From NCBI GenBank assembly GCA_019244185.1, contig JAFATB010000022.1:310001-374000 (forward strand): 64,000 nucleotides of DNA. The letters are read 5' to 3'. The stretch comes from Acidobacteriota bacterium (lineage in GTDB: Bacteria > Acidobacteriota > Thermoanaerobaculia > Gp7-AA8). The notes under the pieces are model-generated. The model was not told the DNA's origin, ran no database searches, and saw nothing but the letters and a program-made list of their open reading frames with translations. The position numbers were made by a program, and so were the translations under genes. This document shows, one piece after another, positions 54,973-63,999 of the stretch; position 1 is the stretch's first letter, and each line of letters starts with the position of its first letter.

Positions 54973-56205
54973 ATGAAGCGCCGCACGAAGATCCTCATCA
55001 CCGTCGCCGTCGTCATCCTTCTCGGCGGCATCACCGCCGCCTCACTGCTCAGCCGCGGCAAGGAAGGCACGCCCGTGGCCTTCGGCAAGACCGCGACGAT
55101 GGACCTCGTCAGCAAGGTCACGGCGAACGGCCGCATCGACGCGAAGCGCAAGGTCGATCTCTCCGCGAACGTGATGGGGCAGATCGTCAACCTCGCCGTG
55201 CGCGAGGGCGACGTCGTGAAGAAGGACGACTTCCTCCTGCAGATCGACCAGAAGCAGCTCGCCGCGTCGGCCGAAGGCGCGGCCGCGTCGATGCGCGCCC
55301 TCTTCTCCGACCGCGACGCCGCGCGCACGACGCTCGACATCACCCAGCGCGACTACGACCGCGCGCGGCGCAACTACGACGAGAAGATCATCCCGCTGGC
55401 CGACCTCGAGCGCGCGCGCAGCTCCGTCGACACCGCCCGCGCCAACGTCACCGCCATCGAGCAGCGCATCCAGCAGTCGCGCGCGAACCTCACCGCCGCG
55501 CGCGACACGCTCTCGAAGACCACCATGCGCGCGCCGATGGCCGGCATCATCACCGCCCTGCCGGTCGAGGAAGGGGAGGTGGCCGTCATCGGCACGATGA
55601 ACAACGCCGGCACGAAGCTCCTCACCATCGCCGACATGAGCGTCGTCGAGGCGGTCATGGAAGTCGACGAGACCGACATCCCGTCCGTGCGCGTCGGTCA
55701 GCGCGCCACCGTGACGATCGATGCATATCCAAACAAAACGTGGTCCGGCATCGTCACCGAAGTCGGCTCCAGCCCGATCACGCGCACGGGACTCTCGACG
55801 AGCAGCGAGGCCGTCAACTTCGAGGTGAAGATCCAGCTCGAACATCCGCCCGCCGACGTGCGCCCCGGCTTTTCCGCGAGCGCCGACATCATCACCGGCA
55901 CGCGCGCGAAGACGCTGGCCATCCCGATCCAGGCGCTGGTCGTGCGCGAGAAGCCGGGCAGCACGCCCGGCAAGTCGCAGGACGAAGAAGGCGTCTTCGT
56001 CGTGAAAGACGGCAAGGCGCAGTTCGTCCCCGTGACCACCGGCCTCGCCGGCGAGTCCGACATCGAGATCACCAGCGGCCTGAAGGCGGGCACGACGATC
56101 ATCACCGGCCCGTTCCGCGCGCTGCGCGAGCTCAAAGACGGCGAGAAGGTGCGCGAGCAGAAGGAAGAGAAGACGACGGGCGACAAGAGCGCGGAGAAGA
56201 AATAG
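54973..56205 (+). CDS. MacA/HlyD-type periplasmic adaptor
   Basis: A 410-residue membrane-fusion protein. One N-terminal membrane helix (about residues 7-26) is followed by a biotinyl-lipoyl-like domain, a helical hairpin (about 90-180, Ala/Arg/Asp-rich) with IAQSRANL-like heptads, then a beta-barrel and membrane-proximal domain. MAGIITALPVEEGEVA and RPGFSASADI are typical. It should connect the two permeases encoded next to an outer-membrane channel. The charged C-terminal tail is Lys/Glu-rich. Confidence 0.92.
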   Translation: MKRRTKILITVAVVILLGGITAASLLSRGKEGTPVAFGKTATMDLVSKVTANGRIDAKRKVDLSANVMGQIVNLAVREGDVVKKDDFLLQIDQKQLAASAEGAAASMRALFSDRDAARTTLDITQRDYDRARRNYDEKIIPLADLERARSSVDTARANVTAIEQRIQQSRANLTAARDTLSKTTMRAPMAGIITALPVEEGEVAVIGTMNNAGTKLLTIADMSVVEAVMEVDETDIPSVRVGQRATVTIDAYPNKTWSGIVTEVGSSPITRTGLSTSSEAVNFEVKIQLEHPPADVRPGFSASADIITGTRAKTLAIPIQALVVREKPGSTPGKSQDEEGVFVVKDGKAQFVPVTTGLAGESDIEITSGLKAGTTIITGPFRALRELKDGEKVREQKEEKTTGDKSAEKK

Positions 56206-57416
56206 TGGAGACGCTCCGCATCGCCGCCACCGCCCTGCGCGCGCATACGCTGCGCAGCTTCCTCACGCTCCTCGGCGTGATCATCGGCGTGATGACGGTG
56301 GTCACCGTCGTGGCCATCATCTCGGGGCTCAACGACTACATCTCCGAGAAAGTCTTCCAGCTCAACCCCGACGTCTACGCCGTGACGCAGTACGGCATCA
56401 TCATGAGCCGCGAGCAGTGGCTCGAGGCGCTGAAGCGGAAGAAGATCACGGTCAGCGACTTCAACGCGGTGCGTGCGCGCTGCTCGCGCTGCGATGCGGT
56501 CGGCGCGTCGAACTCGACGCAGACGACGGTCAAGCGCGGCGCGCACCGGCTCGACGGCGTGCGCGTCAACGGCGCGACCGAGAACATGGCCGAGATTAAC
56601 AATCTCGACCTCGAGGCGGGCCGCTTCTACACGGCATCCGAGGAGCAGCGGTCGGCGCTGGTGACGGTCATTGGATCGGACGTGCGCGATGAGCTCTTCG
56701 GCAAGCTCGATCCGATCGGACGCACGATCTGGATCGCCAATCAGCCGATGCGCGTCATCGGCCTGCTCGCGAAGCAAGGCTCGGTGCTCGGACGCAGCCG
56801 CGACAACCAGCTGTACATCCCTTTGTCGTCGTGGCGGAAGCGCTTCGGCTCGCGCGACAGCATGGACCTCTTCGTGCGCGCGCGCGGCGGCATCGGCGGA
56901 CTCGAAGCCTCCATGGATGAAGTGCGGCTGATCATCCGCGGGCGGCGCAGAACCGCGTTCCGCGGCGACGATCCGTTCGCGGTCGTGACCGCGGAGGCGC
57001 TGCAGATGGTGTGGAAGAGCATCTCCGCGGGACTCTTCTCGCTGATGATCTTCATCTCCGGGATCTCGCTCGTCGTCGGCGGCATCGTGATCATGAACAT
57101 CATGCTGGTCTCCGTCGTCGAGCGGACGCGCGAGATCGGCGTGCGCCGCGCGATCGGCGCGACTCGCCGCAACATCCAACTGCAGTTTCTCAGCGAGGCC
57201 ATCCTCCTCTCCCTCGGCGGCGGCATTCTCGGCGTGCTCCTCGGCGTCGGGATCGCCAAGAGCATCTCCACGTTCGGCCCGCTGCCGACGCTCGTGCGCC
57301 CGATGCTGGTCGTGGCCGGCCTCGGCATCGCCGTCGTCACCGGCGCGCTCGCGGGCTTCGTCCCGGCGCTGCGCGCCGCAAAGCTGCCGCCGATCGAAGC
57401 GCTGAGGTTCGAATGA
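56205..57416 (+). CDS. MacB/FtsX-type ABC permease, first copy
   Basis: A 403-residue permease with one N-terminal membrane helix, a periplasmic MacB-PCD domain (about 45-270) and three C-terminal helices. The end of the coupling region ERTREIGVRRAIGA, before the last helices, is characteristic. There is no ATP-binding domain, unlike MacB itself. It starts with GTG 56205, sharing one base with the adaptor stop. It is followed by a second copy. Confidence 0.92.
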   Translation: METLRIAATALRAHTLRSFLTLLGVIIGVMTVVTVVAIISGLNDYISEKVFQLNPDVYAVTQYGIIMSREQWLEALKRKKITVSDFNAVRARCSRCDAVGASNSTQTTVKRGAHRLDGVRVNGATENMAEINNLDLEAGRFYTASEEQRSALVTVIGSDVRDELFGKLDPIGRTIWIANQPMRVIGLLAKQGSVLGRSRDNQLYIPLSSWRKRFGSRDSMDLFVRARGGIGGLEASMDEVRLIIRGRRRTAFRGDDPFAVVTAEALQMVWKSISAGLFSLMIFISGISLVVGGIVIMNIMLVSVVERTREIGVRRAIGATRRNIQLQFLSEAILLSLGGGILGVLLGVGIAKSISTFGPLPTLVRPMLVVAGLGIAVVTGALAGFVPALRAAKLPPIEALRFE

Positions 57417-58681
57417 TGCGACGTGAGGCACTGGCATCCACCGTCGAGAACGTGCGCTTCGCGCGCATCGCCCTCGCCGCGCACAAACTGCGCTCGTCGC
57501 TGACCGTGCTCGGCATCGTCATCGGCGTGACCACCGTCATCGCGATGGTGTCGATCATCGAAGGCTTCAACAACAACGTCGTGAAGAATTTCCAGTCGTT
57601 CGGCGCGACGCTCGTGCAGTTCCAGAAATACGACCCGCGCTTCGTCAACCCCTCGCGCGACGAGTCGCAGCGGCTGCGCAAGAACCTCACGTACGAAGAC
57701 GCGCTCGCGCTCAAGCGCCTCTGCCCGTCGATGCTCGCGGTCTCGGCCGAGCGCTACATCTGGTCCGGCGAGGAGACCTCGATCGACATCGGCTACGGCG
57801 GCGAGGTGGCCACGCCCGACGGCCTGATCGGGACGACGCAGGACTATCCGATCGCGAACAACCACTTCGTCGGCGAGGGGCGCTTTTTCGGCGAGGCGGA
57901 CGTGCGCCGCTCCGGCGCGGTGCTGGTGCTCGGACGCGGGCTCGCGGACACGCTCTTTCCGCGCACCGATCCCCTCGGCAAAGTGGTCAGCATCTACGGC
58001 CGCAAATACCTCGTCATCGGCGTGATGGAGAAGCAGGGCGCGACGATGTTCGAGTCCACCGACTCGCACGCGTACATCCCGCTGACGACGTTCGACAACC
58101 ACTTCCCGTGGGTGAAGCGCGACCGCGGCGTGAACATCGCCACCGTGCCGCGCAAGCCGGAGTGGGTCGACCGCGTCATCGACGAAGGCACCGCGGTGCT
58201 GCGCGCGCGCCGCCGCGTGCCGTTCAACAAGCCGAACGACTTCGGGATCATGACGCCCGACAAGCTGATCGGAAACTTCCGCGCGATCACCGGCGGCATC
58301 ACGCTGGCCATGATCTTCATCTCGTCGATCGCGCTGCTCGTCGGCGGCGTCGGCGTGATGAACATCATGCTGGTCTCGGTGACCGAGCGCACGCGCGAGA
58401 TCGGCCTGCGCAAAGCGATCGGCGCCGTGCGCCGCGACATCGTGCAGCAGTTTCTCACCGAGGCGATGACGCTGTCGGGCGTGGGCGGCGTGATCGGGAT
58501 CCTGCTCGGACTGGCCATCGCCGCGATCGTGCGCGCGATCAGTCCGTTGCCGACGACGACGCCGGTGTGGTCGATCGTGGTCGGCCTCGTGGTGTCGATC
58601 TCGATCGGGCTGTTCTTCGGGATTTATCCCGCGTACAAGGCCGCGCGGCTCGATCCGGTCGACGCGTTGCGCTACGAATAG
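57413..58681 (+). CDS. MacB/FtsX-type ABC permease, second copy
   Basis: A 422-residue permease similar in layout to the previous gene: N-terminal helix, MacB-PCD domain, and three C-terminal helices with ERTREIGLRKAIGA. ATG 57413 overlaps the previous stop. Two non-identical permeases suggest a heterodimer. The required ATPase is not encoded in this stretch and must be supplied from elsewhere, or be missing. Confidence 0.92.
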   Translation: MMRREALASTVENVRFARIALAAHKLRSSLTVLGIVIGVTTVIAMVSIIEGFNNNVVKNFQSFGATLVQFQKYDPRFVNPSRDESQRLRKNLTYEDALALKRLCPSMLAVSAERYIWSGEETSIDIGYGGEVATPDGLIGTTQDYPIANNHFVGEGRFFGEADVRRSGAVLVLGRGLADTLFPRTDPLGKVVSIYGRKYLVIGVMEKQGATMFESTDSHAYIPLTTFDNHFPWVKRDRGVNIATVPRKPEWVDRVIDEGTAVLRARRRVPFNKPNDFGIMTPDKLIGNFRAITGGITLAMIFISSIALLVGGVGVMNIMLVSVTERTREIGLRKAIGAVRRDIVQQFLTEAMTLSGVGGVIGILLGLAIAAIVRAISPLPTTTPVWSIVVGLVVSISIGLFFGIYPAYKAARLDPVDALRYE

Positions 58682-58694
58682 CCGGGCCCGGTCG

Positions 58695-58700
58695 TATAAT
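58695..58700 (+). promoter_or_regulatory. TATAAT box of the GNAT/aminotransferase unit
   Basis: A perfect TATAAT ends seven bases before ATG 58708. There is no ribosome site and no clear -35 at 17 bases, so transcription would begin at the start codon. Confidence 0.55.
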
Positions 58701-58707
58701 CTCCTTC

Positions 58708-60273
58708 ATGCCACAATTCCGGTTCAAGATCGCGAGCGATCCTCGCGAGCTGGAGCAGATTCATGCGCTGAATTACCGCACGTTCGTCGAGGAGATCCCG
58801 CAGCATTCGCCGAACTCCGACGGACGACTCGTCGATCGCTTCCACGACGAGAACGTGTACGCGATCTCGCTGAGCGGCGAGCGCGTCGTGGGCATGCTCG
58901 CCATCCGCGAGCAGCGCCCGTTCTCGCTCGATCAGAAGCTCGGCAACATCGATGACTTTCTGCCCGCCGTCCGCAAGCCGTGCGAGGTGCGGCTGCTCGC
59001 GGTGGAGAAGGAACATCGCACCGGGCCGGTGCTGCCGGGGCTTCTGTCGGTGCTCTGGGAGCACGCGCACGCGCGGCAGTTCGACTGCGCGGTGATCTCG
59101 GCGACGACGCGCCAGCTGAAGCTCTACGGCCACCTCGGGTTCGTCCCGTTCGGACAGCTCGTCGGCACGGAGGAGGCGGCGTTCCAGCCGATGTACATCA
59201 CGCGCGAGCGGTTCCTGGAGAACGCGCGTGCGCTGCAGCTCGCGCCGGCGGCGCGCGAGGCGACGGTCAACCTGTTGACCGGTCCGGTGGCGTTGCACGC
59301 GGACGTCGCCGCGGCGCTGCGCCGCGCGCCGGAAGGACATCGCTCGCAGGCGTTCCTCGCGGACATGGACGCGCTGCGCACCAGCCTCCGCGCGCTGACG
59401 CGCGCGCCGCACGTGGCCGTGCTCCTCGGTAGCGGCACGCTCGCGAACGACGTCGTCGCCGCGCAGCTCTCGCGGCTCGACACGCGCGGCCTCGTCGTCA
59501 GCAACGGCGAGTTCGGCGAGCGGCTCGCGGATCAGGCGCGCCGGGCGCGGCTCGACTGCGAGCACCTGCGCTTCGACTGGAGCGTGCCGCTCGATCTCGA
59601 CGCCATCGCGAAACGCGACTTCGACTGGCTGTGGATGACGGCCTGCGAGACGTCGACGGCGATGCTGAACGATGTCGCCGCGCTCGGCGCCCTGTGCCGC
59701 GCGCGCGGCGCGAAGCTCTGCCTCGACGCGGTCAGCGCGATCGGCGCGGTGCCGCTCGATCTCTCGCATGTCTATCTCGCCAGCGGCACGAGCGGCAAAG
59801 CGTTCGCGTCCGCGCCCGGACTCGCGCTCGTCTTCCACGACCACGACGTCGAGCCGGCGCAGGAGCTCCCGCGCTATCTCGACCTCGGGCTCTATGTCCG
59901 CGAAGACAGCGTGCCGTTCACGCATTCGTCGAATCTCGTGCGCGCGCTGCGCGTCGCCGTCGAGCGCGTCGACTGGCCGCGTCGTTACGCGGAGCTCGCG
60001 TCGATGGGCCGCTGGCTGCGCTCGCGGGTCGCGGCAAGCGGCTGGAGGGTTCTCGGTAAGGACGCCGCCGCCGCGCCGCACGTCGTCACGCTCGCGCTGC
60101 CGCCGGAGGTCGACGCCGCGCGGTTCGCGCGCGTGCTCGAGGCGCGCGGCTTTCTCATCGGCCACGCCAGCGGCTATCTCCGCGCGCGCAACTGGATCCA
60201 GCTCGCGTGGATGGGGGAGGTCACGCGCGACGACCTGCAACGCGCGCTGCGCGAGCTCCGGCGCGTGTCATGA
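58708..60273 (+). CDS. GNAT acyltransferase fused to class V aminotransferase
   Basis: A 521-residue fusion. Residues 1-175 resemble the GNAT/FeeM-like acyltransferase group (LEQIHALNYRTFVEEIP, ISLSGERVVGMLAIR, EVRLLAVEKEHR and YGHLGFVPFG). Residues of about 205-515 form a class V PLP aminotransferase: GSGTLANDVV for phosphate binding, the LDAVSAIGAVPLDL segment with the pyridine-N Asp, and the PLP Lys in SGTSGKAFASA. The fold resembles alanine-glyoxylate or aminoethylphosphonate transaminases. The two activities are likely successive steps on one product; the substrate is not known. It overlaps the desaturase gene. Confidence 0.82.
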   Translation: MPQFRFKIASDPRELEQIHALNYRTFVEEIPQHSPNSDGRLVDRFHDENVYAISLSGERVVGMLAIREQRPFSLDQKLGNIDDFLPAVRKPCEVRLLAVEKEHRTGPVLPGLLSVLWEHAHARQFDCAVISATTRQLKLYGHLGFVPFGQLVGTEEAAFQPMYITRERFLENARALQLAPAAREATVNLLTGPVALHADVAAALRRAPEGHRSQAFLADMDALRTSLRALTRAPHVAVLLGSGTLANDVVAAQLSRLDTRGLVVSNGEFGERLADQARRARLDCEHLRFDWSVPLDLDAIAKRDFDWLWMTACETSTAMLNDVAALGALCRARGAKLCLDAVSAIGAVPLDLSHVYLASGTSGKAFASAPGLALVFHDHDVEPAQELPRYLDLGLYVREDSVPFTHSSNLVRALRVAVERVDWPRRYAELASMGRWLRSRVAASGWRVLGKDAAAAPHVVTLALPPEVDAARFARVLEARGFLIGHASGYLRARNWIQLAWMGEVTRDDLQRALRELRRVS

Positions 60274-61091
60274 GCGCCGCGCTTCTGCGCAGTCGCCACG
60301 CGGCGTGGCTCACGCACGGCAGCGCCGCCGTGATGACCGTCGCGCTCTTCGCGCTGCTGCTGCGCGTGCCGTTCGCGTACGCGTTCGTGCCGGCGGTGCT
60401 CCTGACGCACCGCATCGGCGTGATGATGCACGAGTACATCCACGGCATCCCGTTCCGCCGCTACGCGAACTGCCTGCGCGTGCTGGCGTTCTTCGACGGC
60501 GTCATGCTGATGTTCGGCCTGCTCGAGCTCTTCCGCGCCACGCATCTCTCGCATCACCGCTGGCTCAACGGCGAAGGCGACTCGGCCTTCGACAACGCGC
60601 GCGTGAAGCGCCATCCGAACCGCGTGCTCGGCGCGCTGCTCGCGCTCGAGGTCACGCAGCATCTGAAGTTCTACTGGGAAGCGCTGCACGGCAAGCATCC
60701 CTTCGCGCGCCCGCGCCGCATCGCGTTCTGCTTCGCCTGGAGCTGCTGCTGCATCGCCGCGTGGTGTCTCATCGGACGCGCGGATATCGTCTGGAAGCTG
60801 CTGTTGCTGACCGCGTTCACGACCAGCGTGCCGGTCTCGCTGCGCGGTGCCGTCGAGCATCACGCCGAGCCGGGACACGACGGATTCGCGAACGAGTACC
60901 GCACGCTCATCCCGCTCTTCAACCTCAACCGCCACATCCACCATCACGAGCAGCCGGCGCTGCCGTGGTACCTGCTCGAGTTCCGCACGCCGGAGCCGCT
61001 GCATCCGAGGCACTACTACACGTATTGGTTCCGGACGTATGTGCGCAAGGAGCTCGTGCTGATGCAGCCGATGCAACGCGCGCGGAGGTAG
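60270..61091 (+). CDS. Fatty acid desaturase-like membrane protein
   Basis: A 273-residue membrane di-iron enzyme. Three His boxes are visible: HEYIHG near residue 48, HLSHHRW near residue 91 and HIHHHEQP near residue 226, plus HHAEPG. Four membrane helices place the boxes at the cytoplasmic face. Family members desaturate or hydroxylate acyl chains, carotenoids or ceramide-like lipids. The start overlaps the fusion gene stop by 4 bp. Confidence 0.85.
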   Translation: MSAALLRSRHAAWLTHGSAAVMTVALFALLLRVPFAYAFVPAVLLTHRIGVMMHEYIHGIPFRRYANCLRVLAFFDGVMLMFGLLELFRATHLSHHRWLNGEGDSAFDNARVKRHPNRVLGALLALEVTQHLKFYWEALHGKHPFARPRRIAFCFAWSCCCIAAWCLIGRADIVWKLLLLTAFTTSVPVSLRGAVEHHAEPGHDGFANEYRTLIPLFNLNRHIHHHEQPALPWYLLEFRTPEPLHPRHYYTYWFRTYVRKELVLMQPMQRARR

Positions 61092-61121
61092 GGAAACGGC
61101 GCGAATCCCACTCTCCTCAGC

Positions 61122-62342
61122 ATGGGACTCGCGCTCGCCGTCGACGCGCCGCCGCCATCCACCGTGCCGGTGGAGGTGGCGGGATACTTCATCGATACCA
61201 CCAGCGGCTCGCCGCTCCACCGCATCACGCACTTTCAGACGGGGCAGACGTTCGTGCTCGTCCGCGCGTACCTCATCGCCGTCGCTGTGACGTACGTGCC
61301 GCTCGCGCTCGCGGCGCTGCTCGGCCCCGCGCCGATCGGCGCGCCGAGTGCCAGCGTGCGCCTGCCGTTTCTCTACGACTGGAACATCATCTTCACGTTC
61401 CTCGTGTCGTTCCCGGCGGTGATCGTCTACACGATCTCCGATCACGCCGCGCTGTCGGCGGCGCTCTCGAGCATCCAGCAGGACGGCATCCTGATCGTGC
61501 CTGAGGCGGAGGCGCGGAAGCTCAGCCGCGTGTGGGGGCCGCGCTTCCGGCGCATCAACCAGCTCTCGCTCGTCGCCGGCGCGCTGGTCGGCCTCGCGCT
61601 GATCGTCGGCAACATCCACGCGTACAGCCAGCCCGGCGTCGGCTTCTGGGTCGACTTCAGCGACCGCCGCCCCGGCGCGCTGCTCGTCGGCTGCGCGTTC
61701 CTCTACTGCATCGTGACGGTCTACTTCTCGATGATCGTCTTCGTCTTCCGCAGCATCGCCATCGCGTTCTTCCTCAACGACGTCGTCGACGACGCGCAGC
61801 TGCGCATGGTGCCGTTCCATCCCGATCACTGCGGCGGCCTGCGCCCGGTCGGCCGCTTCGGACTGCGCAACCAGTACGTCCTCAGCATCCTCGGCTTCAA
61901 CGTGGTGCTGCTCCTCGGCGTGACGGTCAGCTACTTGACCATTCCGTCGTCGCTCTTCGCGCTCATCACCGGCGCCGCGCTGGCGTACCTGATCCTCGGC
62001 CCGCTCGTCTTCATGGGGCCGCTGCTGTCGTTCCGCACCGGCATGGTGCGCACGAAGGGCGAGCTGATGGGGGAGATCGCACAGCGCCTCCGCCGCGAGC
62101 TGCAGCGCCTGCGCAAGGAGCTGCCGTCCGGCGAGATCACGCGCGACGACGAGGAGCTCATCGACCGCCTGCGCAAGGTGGGCGGGGTGATCGACGAGCT
62201 GCCGGTCTGGCCGTTCGATGCGAACACGCTGCGCCGCTTTCTCACCGCGTACGTCACGCCGCTTCTCGGCGCGCTCGCCGTGCCGCTGCTCGACAAAGCT
62301 TGGGACGTCGTGCTGTCCGTCGTGAAGATCAGCGCCTCGTGA
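61122..62342 (+). CDS. Membrane protein of unknown function
   Basis: A 406-residue protein with about six helices: two near residues 46-66 and 88-108, two around 155-175 and 188-215, two around 250-300. A final amphipathic C-terminal segment (about 380-400) is also present. A charged helix (about 315-350, Arg/Glu/Leu) follows. PFHPDHCGGLRPVG in the central loop holds a His/Cys pair. No family is recognised. It lies 30 bases after the desaturase gene and likely belongs to its operon. It overlaps the convergent serine hydrolase by 14 bases. Confidence 0.65.
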   Translation: MGLALAVDAPPPSTVPVEVAGYFIDTTSGSPLHRITHFQTGQTFVLVRAYLIAVAVTYVPLALAALLGPAPIGAPSASVRLPFLYDWNIIFTFLVSFPAVIVYTISDHAALSAALSSIQQDGILIVPEAEARKLSRVWGPRFRRINQLSLVAGALVGLALIVGNIHAYSQPGVGFWVDFSDRRPGALLVGCAFLYCIVTVYFSMIVFVFRSIAIAFFLNDVVDDAQLRMVPFHPDHCGGLRPVGRFGLRNQYVLSILGFNVVLLLGVTVSYLTIPSSLFALITGAALAYLILGPLVFMGPLLSFRTGMVRTKGELMGEIAQRLRRELQRLRKELPSGEITRDDEELIDRLRKVGGVIDELPVWPFDANTLRRFLTAYVTPLLGALAVPLLDKAWDVVLSVVKISAS

Positions 62343-63999
62343 ACGCGACGCCTCCAACAGTGACGCTGTTGCCCGCGAACGTCAACGGCAGTGCGGCGTG
62401 CGCGCCGAAGTCGTAAGCCGTCAGCGTTCCGTCGGACGTGGCGGCGAAGACGCGCGCGAGCGGCGGCGCCTCGCCGGGCGAGCTGCCCACGAGACGTCCT
62501 TCGCCTTTGTCGCGCCAGAGAAACGACATGCCGTTCGCGCCGCGCTCCCACTGATAGGCGACGAACACGCGCGCGGCGCCGCGCCTCATCGGCAACGCGC
62601 CGCGGACGTCGAACGCGCGCAACGCGCCGTACTTGCCCGTCAGCGTCGTCCATTCGGTGATGTAGTCGGGAACGTATTCGGCGCCGTCGCCGTACAGGGC
62701 GGCGGTGTACGCGTCTTTCGCGTTGCCCGCGCGCAAACCCTCGAGCAGCGCGTTCGTCTTCGCGACCGCTTTCGCGAGCGACGCCGCGTCGGCACTCGCG
62801 TTCCACAACGCGATCGCCGCGTTCGGATCCAGCGCGTCAGCGACCAGCTGCCGTCCGACGCGATGGAACTGCAGCCGCGCGCCATTCGCCGCGGTGTAGA
62901 TGCCGTCGCGCGGAGCGGCGCCGGCATCGCGGACGTCCGGCAGCGGCTCGAGTTTCGCGGGTGCGCCCGCGAGCGCCGTGATCGCGTCCTGCACGCCCCA
63001 GCGCAGCCAGATGCCGTTGAGCTCCGTGCGGTTGCTCGTGAGGATGATCGCGATCTTTTCCTTCGGGTAGTAGCGCATCGTGCAGCTGAAGCCCGGCTCC
63101 GTGTCGCCGCCGTGCTCGAGCAGCGTGTCGCCGACGAACCACGCGTAGCCGTACGAGTCGTCACCCTTCGGCATCTTCACGTGGCGCGCGGTCATCTTGG
63201 CGAACTGCGCGGGCGGAATGACGCGCCCTTCGCGCAAGGCGCGCGCGAACGTCGCCAGATCTTCGGCGGTCGAGAAGACGCTGCCCGCGCCCCACGTGCG
63301 CGGGTTGTCCGGCCACGACGCGACGGAGCCCTGCGGTGCGAAGCCGCGATACGCGGTCGCCGCGTCGCGAAAGCGCGCGGAGTCGACGCCGTACACGCCG
63401 CTGTGCTTCATGCGCAGTGGATCGAAGATCGCTTTGTGCAGATATGCCGCGTACGACATGCCGGATGCGCGCTCGATGATCGCGGCGAGCAGGTTGTAGC
63501 CCGCGTTCGCGTAGCGCCACGTGCCGGGCGTCTTGCGCGGCTGCGCGAGGATCTTTGCGATGAGCGCGCGATGCTCGATCGGCGCGAAGTCGTCGACGAC
63601 GTCGCCCGGTGGCAAGCCGGACGTGTGCGTCAGCAGCTGATGGATGGTGATGTCGCGCCGGTCGTCGGGCACGTTGTCGATGTAGCGGTCGATCGTATCG
63701 GTGACGTGCAGCTTGCCGTCCGCCTCGAGGCGCAGGATCGCCGCGGCGGTGAACTGCTTCGATTCCGAGGCGATGTTGAAGATCGTGTTGCGCGTGACAC
63801 GTGCGGCGCGCGCGCGGTCGGCGAAGCCGTATGCGCCGTCGTGAATGACGACGCCATCGCGCTCGACGACGACCTGTCCGTCGAAGCCGAGCGCCTCGGC
63901 GCGCGCGAGGTAATCGGCGATGGCGCGATGCGAGGGAGCGGCGACGGCGATGACGGCGGTGAGGAGAGAGCAGAGCAGCACAACGATTCGACGAAACAT
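62329..63999 (-). CDS. Class C beta-lactamase-like serine hydrolase
   Basis: A 556-residue secreted penicillin-binding-protein-like esterase. A signal peptide (about 20 residues) is followed by SESK (Ser-x2-Lys active site near residue 78), YANAGYN (Tyr-x-Asn near residue 168) and HGG near residue 295. The C-terminal 230 residues are beta-rich and hold a second domain. Such proteins are often D-aminopeptidases or esterases, not antibiotic-degrading enzymes. The ATG at 63999 is one base from the window edge, so the gene is complete but its promoter is not visible. Confidence 0.85.
   Translation of the reverse strand: MFRRIVVLLCSLLTAVIAVAAPSHRAIADYLARAEALGFDGQVVVERDGVVIHDGAYGFADRARAARVTRNTIFNIASESKQFTAAAILRLEADGKLHVTDTIDRYIDNVPDDRRDITIHQLLTHTSGLPPGDVVDDFAPIEHRALIAKILAQPRKTPGTWRYANAGYNLLAAIIERASGMSYAAYLHKAIFDPLRMKHSGVYGVDSARFRDAATAYRGFAPQGSVASWPDNPRTWGAGSVFSTAEDLATFARALREGRVIPPAQFAKMTARHVKMPKGDDSYGYAWFVGDTLLEHGGDTEPGFSCTMRYYPKEKIAIILTSNRTELNGIWLRWGVQDAITALAGAPAKLEPLPDVRDAGAAPRDGIYTAANGARLQFHRVGRQLVADALDPNAAIALWNASADAASLAKAVAKTNALLEGLRAGNAKDAYTAALYGDGAEYVPDYITEWTTLTGKYGALRAFDVRGALPMRRGAARVFVAYQWERGANGMSFLWRDKGEGRLVGSSPGEAPPLARVFAATSDGTLTAYDFGAHAALPLTFAGNSVTVGGVAFTRR

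Follow-up and report, generated by a model that had tools for sequence, protein, structure and literature searches.

A fused GNAT and class V PLP protein as a candidate N-acyl serinol (phosphate) synthase, with a PlsY paralogue as its recurrent neighbour

The window analysed here is a stretch of 64,000 nucleotides from contig JAFATB010000022.1 of an Acidobacteriota bacterium, and the gene in question is one that joins a GNAT acyltransferase domain to a class V pyridoxal 5'-phosphate (PLP) domain, referred to below as the fusion. The fusion occurs in several phyla, its PLP domain carries glutamine in place of the arginine that binds the substrate carboxylate in related enzymes, and in many relatives it is linked to a paralogue of the acyltransferase PlsY with changed acceptor-site residues. 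We propose that the fusion is an N-acyl-amine synthase complete in itself, of the N-acyl serinol (phosphate) type, with a diacyl product where it is coupled to PlsY, and hold this reading with about even confidence. A preliminary description, made from the sequence alone, had proposed a three-gene module of fusion, desaturase and membrane protein that makes an acylated amino compound or modified lipid. It was right in kind, and the recurrent PlsY partner supports its general idea, but it was wrong in what belongs together.

The fused protein and its acyltransferase domain

The fusion and its two domains are placed in the window as follows.

58708-60273, forward strand: fusion gene (gene 1), ATG at 58708, 521 residues, GNAT plus class V PLP
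58708-59232, forward strand: GNAT acyltransferase domain, FeeM/acyl-homoserine-lactone-synthase-like, about residues 1-175 of the fusion (Pfam, conservation and fold match)
59266-60270, forward strand: class V PLP (aminotransferase-fold) domain, about residues 187-521 of the fusion (Pfam, NCBIfam, fold match and residues)

The joining of a FeeM-like GNAT domain to a class V PLP domain, as first described, was borne out by Pfam, NCBIfam and AlphaFold2, and the ATG lies 13 nucleotides after the position given originally (58695). The AlphaFold2 model of the whole fusion showed two confident domains (mean pLDDT 89.3) and a low-confidence linker at residues 179-184, and the GNAT half predicted alone reached a pLDDT of 91.5. 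Residues 18-151 matched FeeM (PF21926, 34.5 bits, cut-off 27) and Acetyltransf_5 (PF13444, 28 bits, cut-off 22.4). The predicted GNAT fold resembled those of BjaI (5w8a-g), MesI, LasI (1ro5) and FeeM (2g0b) with TM values of about 0.7-0.76, and a profile of the domain compared with the PDB matched the acyl-homoserine-lactone synthase BjaI with an E value of 5e-4. The fusion therefore has the same GNAT domain family and fold as FeeM and the acyl-homoserine-lactone synthases BjaI and LasI, but the identity in structural alignments was only 14-26% and, unlike these enzymes, its GNAT domain is joined to a PLP domain, the presumed source of the acceptor. A degenerate GNAT pocket had been considered a possible objection to the acylation idea; the site is intact, with 29 residues invariant across 22 diverse members, including E93, R95, R104, R67 and D43.

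The PLP domain lacks the carboxylate-binding arginine

The PLP domain matched Aminotran_5 (PF00266) over residues 210-378 with 26.9 bits (cut-off 21.5), and the NCBIfam alignment covered residues 191-518. Foldseek with the PLP half retrieved the class V aminotransferases 1iug, 1vjo and 2yri and PhnW (1m32/9kka). The PLP lysine K364 is invariant, as are D340, S343, R212, E314-T315-S316 and S362-G363, and therefore a working PLP enzyme is expected. The fold, the PLP lysine and aspartate and the order of the motifs are those of PhnW/AepZ and other class V aminotransferases (1m32, 9kka, 1iug, 2yri). In contrast to PhnW/AepZ-type enzymes, the fusion has SGK in place of the usual SQK-type motif, a short deletion before RYLDL, and glutamine instead of the carboxylate arginine in every intact copy.

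This glutamine, Gln498, was invariant in 32/32 intact fusions and was also found in most split or divergent members, whereas arginine occupied the position in 22 outgroup class V enzymes and in five solved structures (2yri, 1iug, 1vjo, 2dr1 and PhnW 1m32). In Arabidopsis AGT1 the equivalent arginine holds the substrate carboxylate, and the side chain is held by the neighbouring Y/H-R pair, the counterpart of His41-Arg42 in phosphoserine aminotransferase (PMC6797613). The loss of the carboxylate arginine thus speaks against ordinary transamination of the alanine or serine type. PhnW acts on a substrate without a carboxylate, yet it has retained the arginine, we argue, because its co-substrate is pyruvate. 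The domain is best described as a member of the class V fold, and ordinary alpha-amino-acid transamination is not claimed for it.

We infer a substrate without an alpha-carboxylate, most likely dihydroxyacetone or dihydroxyacetone phosphate (DHAP). The change of arginine to Gln498 and the HR pair both fit a phosphate-bearing substrate with CH2OH in the place of the carboxylate, and a DHAP-like compound with its phosphate toward the HR pair and its CH2OH toward Gln498 would fit best. Two points count against this assignment. The binding of an amino-acid donor with Gln498 in place is unexplained, so that transamination itself is a deduction, and the HR motif is also present in class V enzymes that do not act on phosphates. 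The SHR motif was rejected as sole evidence of phosphate binding, because related class V enzymes without known phosphate substrates carry it too.

The PLP domain scored below every curated equivalog cut-off. The closest curated model was the 2-aminoethylphosphonate aminotransferase model TIGR03301 (139.7 bits against a cut-off of 360.8); a second model for this activity, TIGR02326, gave 79.4 bits against 400.8. This ranking, together with PntC-AEPT fusions among the structural neighbours, would agree with a phosphonolipid synthase whose PLP domain transaminates aminoethylphosphonate and whose GNAT domain makes N-acyl aminoethylphosphonate. The chance of this is slight, since the score falls far short of the cut-off, PhnW retains the arginine that the fusion family has lost, and phosphoenolpyruvate (PEP) mutase exceeded its curated cut-off in only 1/31 fusion genomes. 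Alanine, serine and phosphonates, named as assay substrates in the preliminary description, are, in view of the lost arginine and the PEP mutase count, a poor fit as partners of ordinary two-way transamination.

The PLP domain could also catalyse a reaction other than transamination, namely an elimination, a decarboxylation, an aldol-type reaction or a racemisation, either on an amine that the GNAT domain then acylates or on the N-acylated product. In PLP enzymes a changed reaction can be signalled by the loss of a key residue for substrate binding, and PbfA is a precedent for a lyase hidden in an aminotransferase family (PMC8154272). We consider such a change quite unlikely here, because the domain resembles true aminotransferases overall (the PhnW/AepZ score above and the folds of 1iug, 2yri and 1m32) and no partner gene indicates another reaction.

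A PlsY paralogue is the recurrent partner of the fusion

A gene for a PlsY-type acyltransferase (PF02660) was located directly upstream of the fusion, or of the split GNAT gene, in 17 loci from three phyla, with gaps of -4 to about +66 nucleotides. These loci comprised all 14 Bacillota loci read, two loci of the window's phylum (G016 and G203) and one from Gemmatimonadota (G594); the Bacillota count includes a record labelled Arthrobacter that has a Sporosarcina-like locus. The genes downstream of the PlsY-linked fusions varied by lineage and encoded members of the lipoteichoic acid (LTA) synthase family, a beta-propeller protein and others. The linked paralogues matched PF02660 with 114-151 bits. 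In one Bacillota family, at least two PlsY genes were present in 9/9 fusion carriers, compared with 2/8 non-carriers.

The linked PlsYs formed one branch apart from the housekeeping PlsYs in a midpoint-rooted FastTree phylogeny that was read without support values. Most Bacillota paralogues shared 39-41% identity with the paralogue at locus L053 from the window's phylum, two of them 31-33%, but only 26-34% with the canonical PlsY encoded in the same genome. Residues were numbered on the Aquifex structure (5xj5, PMC5700162), in which the chain positions are one above those of the paper. Most phosphate-clamp residues of PlsY and the histidine were present in the linked paralogues (S35 in 17/17, R45 in 16/17, K104 in 15/17, H177 in 17/17 and N180 in 12/17). 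However, Ser142 was replaced by glycine in 16/17 and Thr41 by arginine in 15/17, whereas Ser142 was found in 30/30 and Thr41 in 29/30 of the canonical PlsYs compared. Ser142 contacts the 2-OH of glycerol-3-phosphate (PMC5700162), and on a plain reading the acceptor of the linked PlsY would be a phosphorylated three-carbon compound with a group other than hydroxyl at C2.

Several observations weigh against the main proposal. Three Sporosarcina-type paralogues have Asp for Asn180 and two have Met for Lys104. Among PlsY homologues generally, Gly142 occurs in 5.2% and Arg41 in 3.0% (PMC5700162). The mirror-tree correlation between fusion and linked PlsY was high (r 0.97), but a control with canonical PlsY gave r 0.90, so that the value partly reflects species history, and the mirror-tree was rejected as proof. 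A single PlsY of the canonical type, without a paralogue next to the fusion, is all that most Gemmatimonadota carriers and the members of the window's own family possess. No PlsY paralogue was found in G000, the window's genome, either beside the fusion or elsewhere; its one PlsY gene (L147) is of the canonical type and lies on another contig.

The linked PlsY also bears on a further explanation, that the fusion is a synthase of N-acyl amino acids or other N-acyl amines. The PLP domain would then make or recycle an ordinary amine (alanine, serine or another amino acid), the GNAT domain would acylate it in the manner of FeeM, and the PlsY paralogue would O-acylate the product as in ornithine-type aminolipids. 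The GNAT domain does belong to the FeeM family, and the two-step logic of a GNAT enzyme and an O-acyltransferase is established for aminolipids (PMC11631085). We nevertheless regard this explanation as rather unlikely, because the carboxylate arginine is invariantly lost from the PLP domain and because the linked PlsY mostly keeps the phosphate clamp, which suggests a phosphorylated acceptor.

Proposed pathway and its precedents

For the N-acyl serinol (phosphate) reading, we infer the substrates, the products and the order of the steps as follows. The PLP domain would aminate DHAP, or dihydroxyacetone, to serinol phosphate or serinol. The GNAT domain would then N-acylate this amine with a long acyl chain, probably from acyl-acyl carrier protein. 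In the PlsY-linked lineages a further acylation, with acyl-phosphate as donor, would follow at the hydroxyl that is left; the diacyl product, an amide analogue of phosphatidic acid, could feed phospholipid or lipoteichoic-acid-like pathways. The first two steps are suggested by the domain families and their residues, the third by the linkage and the residue changes in PlsY; serinol phosphate, as aminated DHAP, would be a possible substrate of a PlsY whose C2 pocket is altered. In the window's genome the product could be N-acyl serinol (phosphate) or else a lipid that the housekeeping PlsY completes, and the desaturase encoded downstream of the fusion may act on the acyl chain.

In capsule synthesis of Campylobacter jejuni, Cj1437 converts DHAP and glutamate to (S)-serinol phosphate (PMC12096443). 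Cj1437 is a precedent for the first step, likened to the fusion by reaction and not by sequence, but it serves the capsule and not a lipid. N-acyl serinols are receptor-active lipids of commensal bacteria, whose N-acyl synthases for them are attributed to Gemella (PMC12594153, PMC10666787). The Gemella enzyme, likened here without sequence comparison, belongs to the N-acyl synthase group and has the product class predicted for the fusion, and Gemella is a member of the class Bacilli, order Caryophanales, as are the Bacillota fusion carriers. The Gemella enzyme of Cohen et al. (Nature, 2017) is reportedly a didomain protein whose aminotransferase domain is said to supply the serinol. To our knowledge, a PlsY linkage of an N-acyl serinol synthase, and hence a diacyl phospholipid product, has not been described. 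Conversion of N-acyl serinols to phospholipid-like species by acylating host enzymes has been raised, as speculation only (PMC12594153); in view of the PlsY linkage, some bacteria might carry out this step themselves.

With the fusion, a probable N-acyl serinol synthase would be known from several phyla of environmental bacteria and be tied to a phospholipid acyltransferase. A wider proposal is that a horizontally spread cassette of PlsY and fusion builds an undescribed backbone, a diacyl serinol phosphate with an amide at sn-2 and an ester at sn-1, parallel to phosphatidic acid and drawn from the same DHAP pool, and that the window's lineage has a desaturase in place of PlsY. This we offer tentatively, as a possibility with the balance of probability against it. 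If the PlsY-linked amide analogue of phosphatidic acid exists, bacteria would have a second, amide-containing backbone of glycerophospholipid type, which standard lipidomics would likely misassign. The analysis also defines a class V PLP subfamily without the carboxylate-binding arginine, which gives a handle for finding the substrate.

Occurrence of the fusion

Full-length homologues of the fusion were 41-62% identical to the window protein, with 60% for a genome of the same genus (G286) and 62% for one of the same family (G402). Strong matches were found in 9/396 sampled genomes of the window's phylum, the window's own genome counted, in 12/249 sampled Gemmatimonadota genomes and in 9/17 genomes of one Bacillota family. 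Further carriers belong to Sporosarcina and Cytobacillus, with one more in a record labelled Paenibacillus bovis, and one betaproteobacterium has a copy that is possibly frameshifted. Judged by these matches, the fusion is a real but scattered family of Bacillota, Gemmatimonadota, the window's phylum and one betaproteobacterium. A search of mobile elements found the fusion on one Cytobacillus plasmid, and the viral contigs searched held no relatives of it.

The occurrence of the two domains as separate genes, unlinked to a desaturase, had been named as a finding that would speak against the original interpretation. The domains are fused over the full length in several phyla, but in G188, G594 and G694 they read as separate adjacent frames, and to that extent the finding does speak against it. 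The copies at L109, L112 and L122 have internal stops or frame changes and would be either pseudogenes or sequencing errors. A Sporosarcina-like PlsY-fusion locus (L047/L124) occurs in a record labelled Arthrobacter beigongshangensis, which may point to a wrong label or a contaminated assembly.

The desaturase and the third gene are local to the window's lineage

Two genes follow the fusion in the window.

60270-61091, forward strand: gene 2, fatty-acid-desaturase-family membrane enzyme of 273 residues (FA_desaturase PF00487, three His boxes)
61122-62342, forward strand: gene 3, polytopic membrane protein of 406 residues, about seven hydrophobic segments, motif HPDHCGGL

Both genes were confirmed as first reported. 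The start of gene 2 lies within the stop of gene 1 (ATGA), a 4-nucleotide overlap of fusion and desaturase; gene 2 matched PF00487 with 58.6 bits (cut-off 29.7) and has the His boxes HEYIH (54-58), HLSHH (92-96) and HIHHH (222-226). Gene 3 is polytopic, and a Pfam scan gave no family match. Genes 1-3 are judged to be genuine, because the fusion has full-length homologues, pieces of the desaturase are conserved at 64-80% identity and gene 3 has a distant relative.

The three genes do not hold together as a module in relatives. Among the genomes searched, 149 from the class and 396 from the phylum, the desaturase was present only in G000 and G402, and in G402 as broken pieces with the identity to the window desaturase given above. 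One piece (L075:9936-10148) encodes the last 71 desaturase residues and lies immediately after the fusion, pointing the other way; the other (L130:382-971) encodes residues 4-200 with a frame change and lies on another contig. The G402 desaturase has thus decayed, been rearranged or been misassembled, and its pieces are a sign that fusion and desaturase once adjoined in the window's family. The same-genus genome G286 lacks both the desaturase and gene 3 although it has the fusion, and no other fusion locus read carries either gene, nor do the plasmids searched. The single relative of gene 3, in G485 (L129:1351-2583), is 27% identical, shares the motif HPDHCGGL and has a context not linked to the fusion; the two belong to a membrane protein family without a Pfam model.

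A dedicated pathway of fusion, desaturase and exporter, in which a desaturated acylated amine is moved by the third protein, would account for the 4-nucleotide overlap of genes 1 and 2, the 30-nucleotide gap to gene 3, and the confinement of the only other such desaturase in the class to a fusion-bearing genome, with one piece beside the fusion. With G286 and the other fusion loci lacking both genes, and the only relative of gene 3 distant and unlinked, we regard such a pathway as very unlikely. To the earlier question whether the desaturase always follows the fusion, the answer across the fusion loci read is no. The desaturase was rejected as a conserved core partner and, by its distribution, is a lineage-specific neighbour of the fusion; gene 3 is probably a passenger.

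Other neighbouring genes

The LTA synthase, PPK2, P450, CPBP and beta-propeller neighbours were rejected as partners of the fusion, since each is confined to one lineage. In G286 a cytochrome P450 gene (L050:9603-10835) lies 37 nucleotides upstream of the fusion. A PPK2-type polyphosphate kinase gene lies closely downstream of the fusion in three genomes that belong to a single family of the phylum (L054:6481-7965, L055 and L056). On a Cytobacillus spongiae plasmid the order is PlsY, fusion and LtaS-like gene, and this LTA-synthase/sulfatase-family gene (L060:9599-11449) overlaps the fusion, which hints at a use of the lipid in envelope polymer synthesis.

In the window, genes for an HlyD-type adaptor and two overlapping MacB/FtsX-type permeases (54973-58681) end 26 nucleotides upstream of the fusion and possibly form one transcript with it. 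No ABC ATPase gene was seen beside these permease genes, and HlyD/MacB-type genes are not conserved upstream of the fusions in relatives. On the reverse strand, a gene of the beta-lactamase family (serine hydrolase) at 62329-63999 runs tail to tail into gene 3, overlapping its end.

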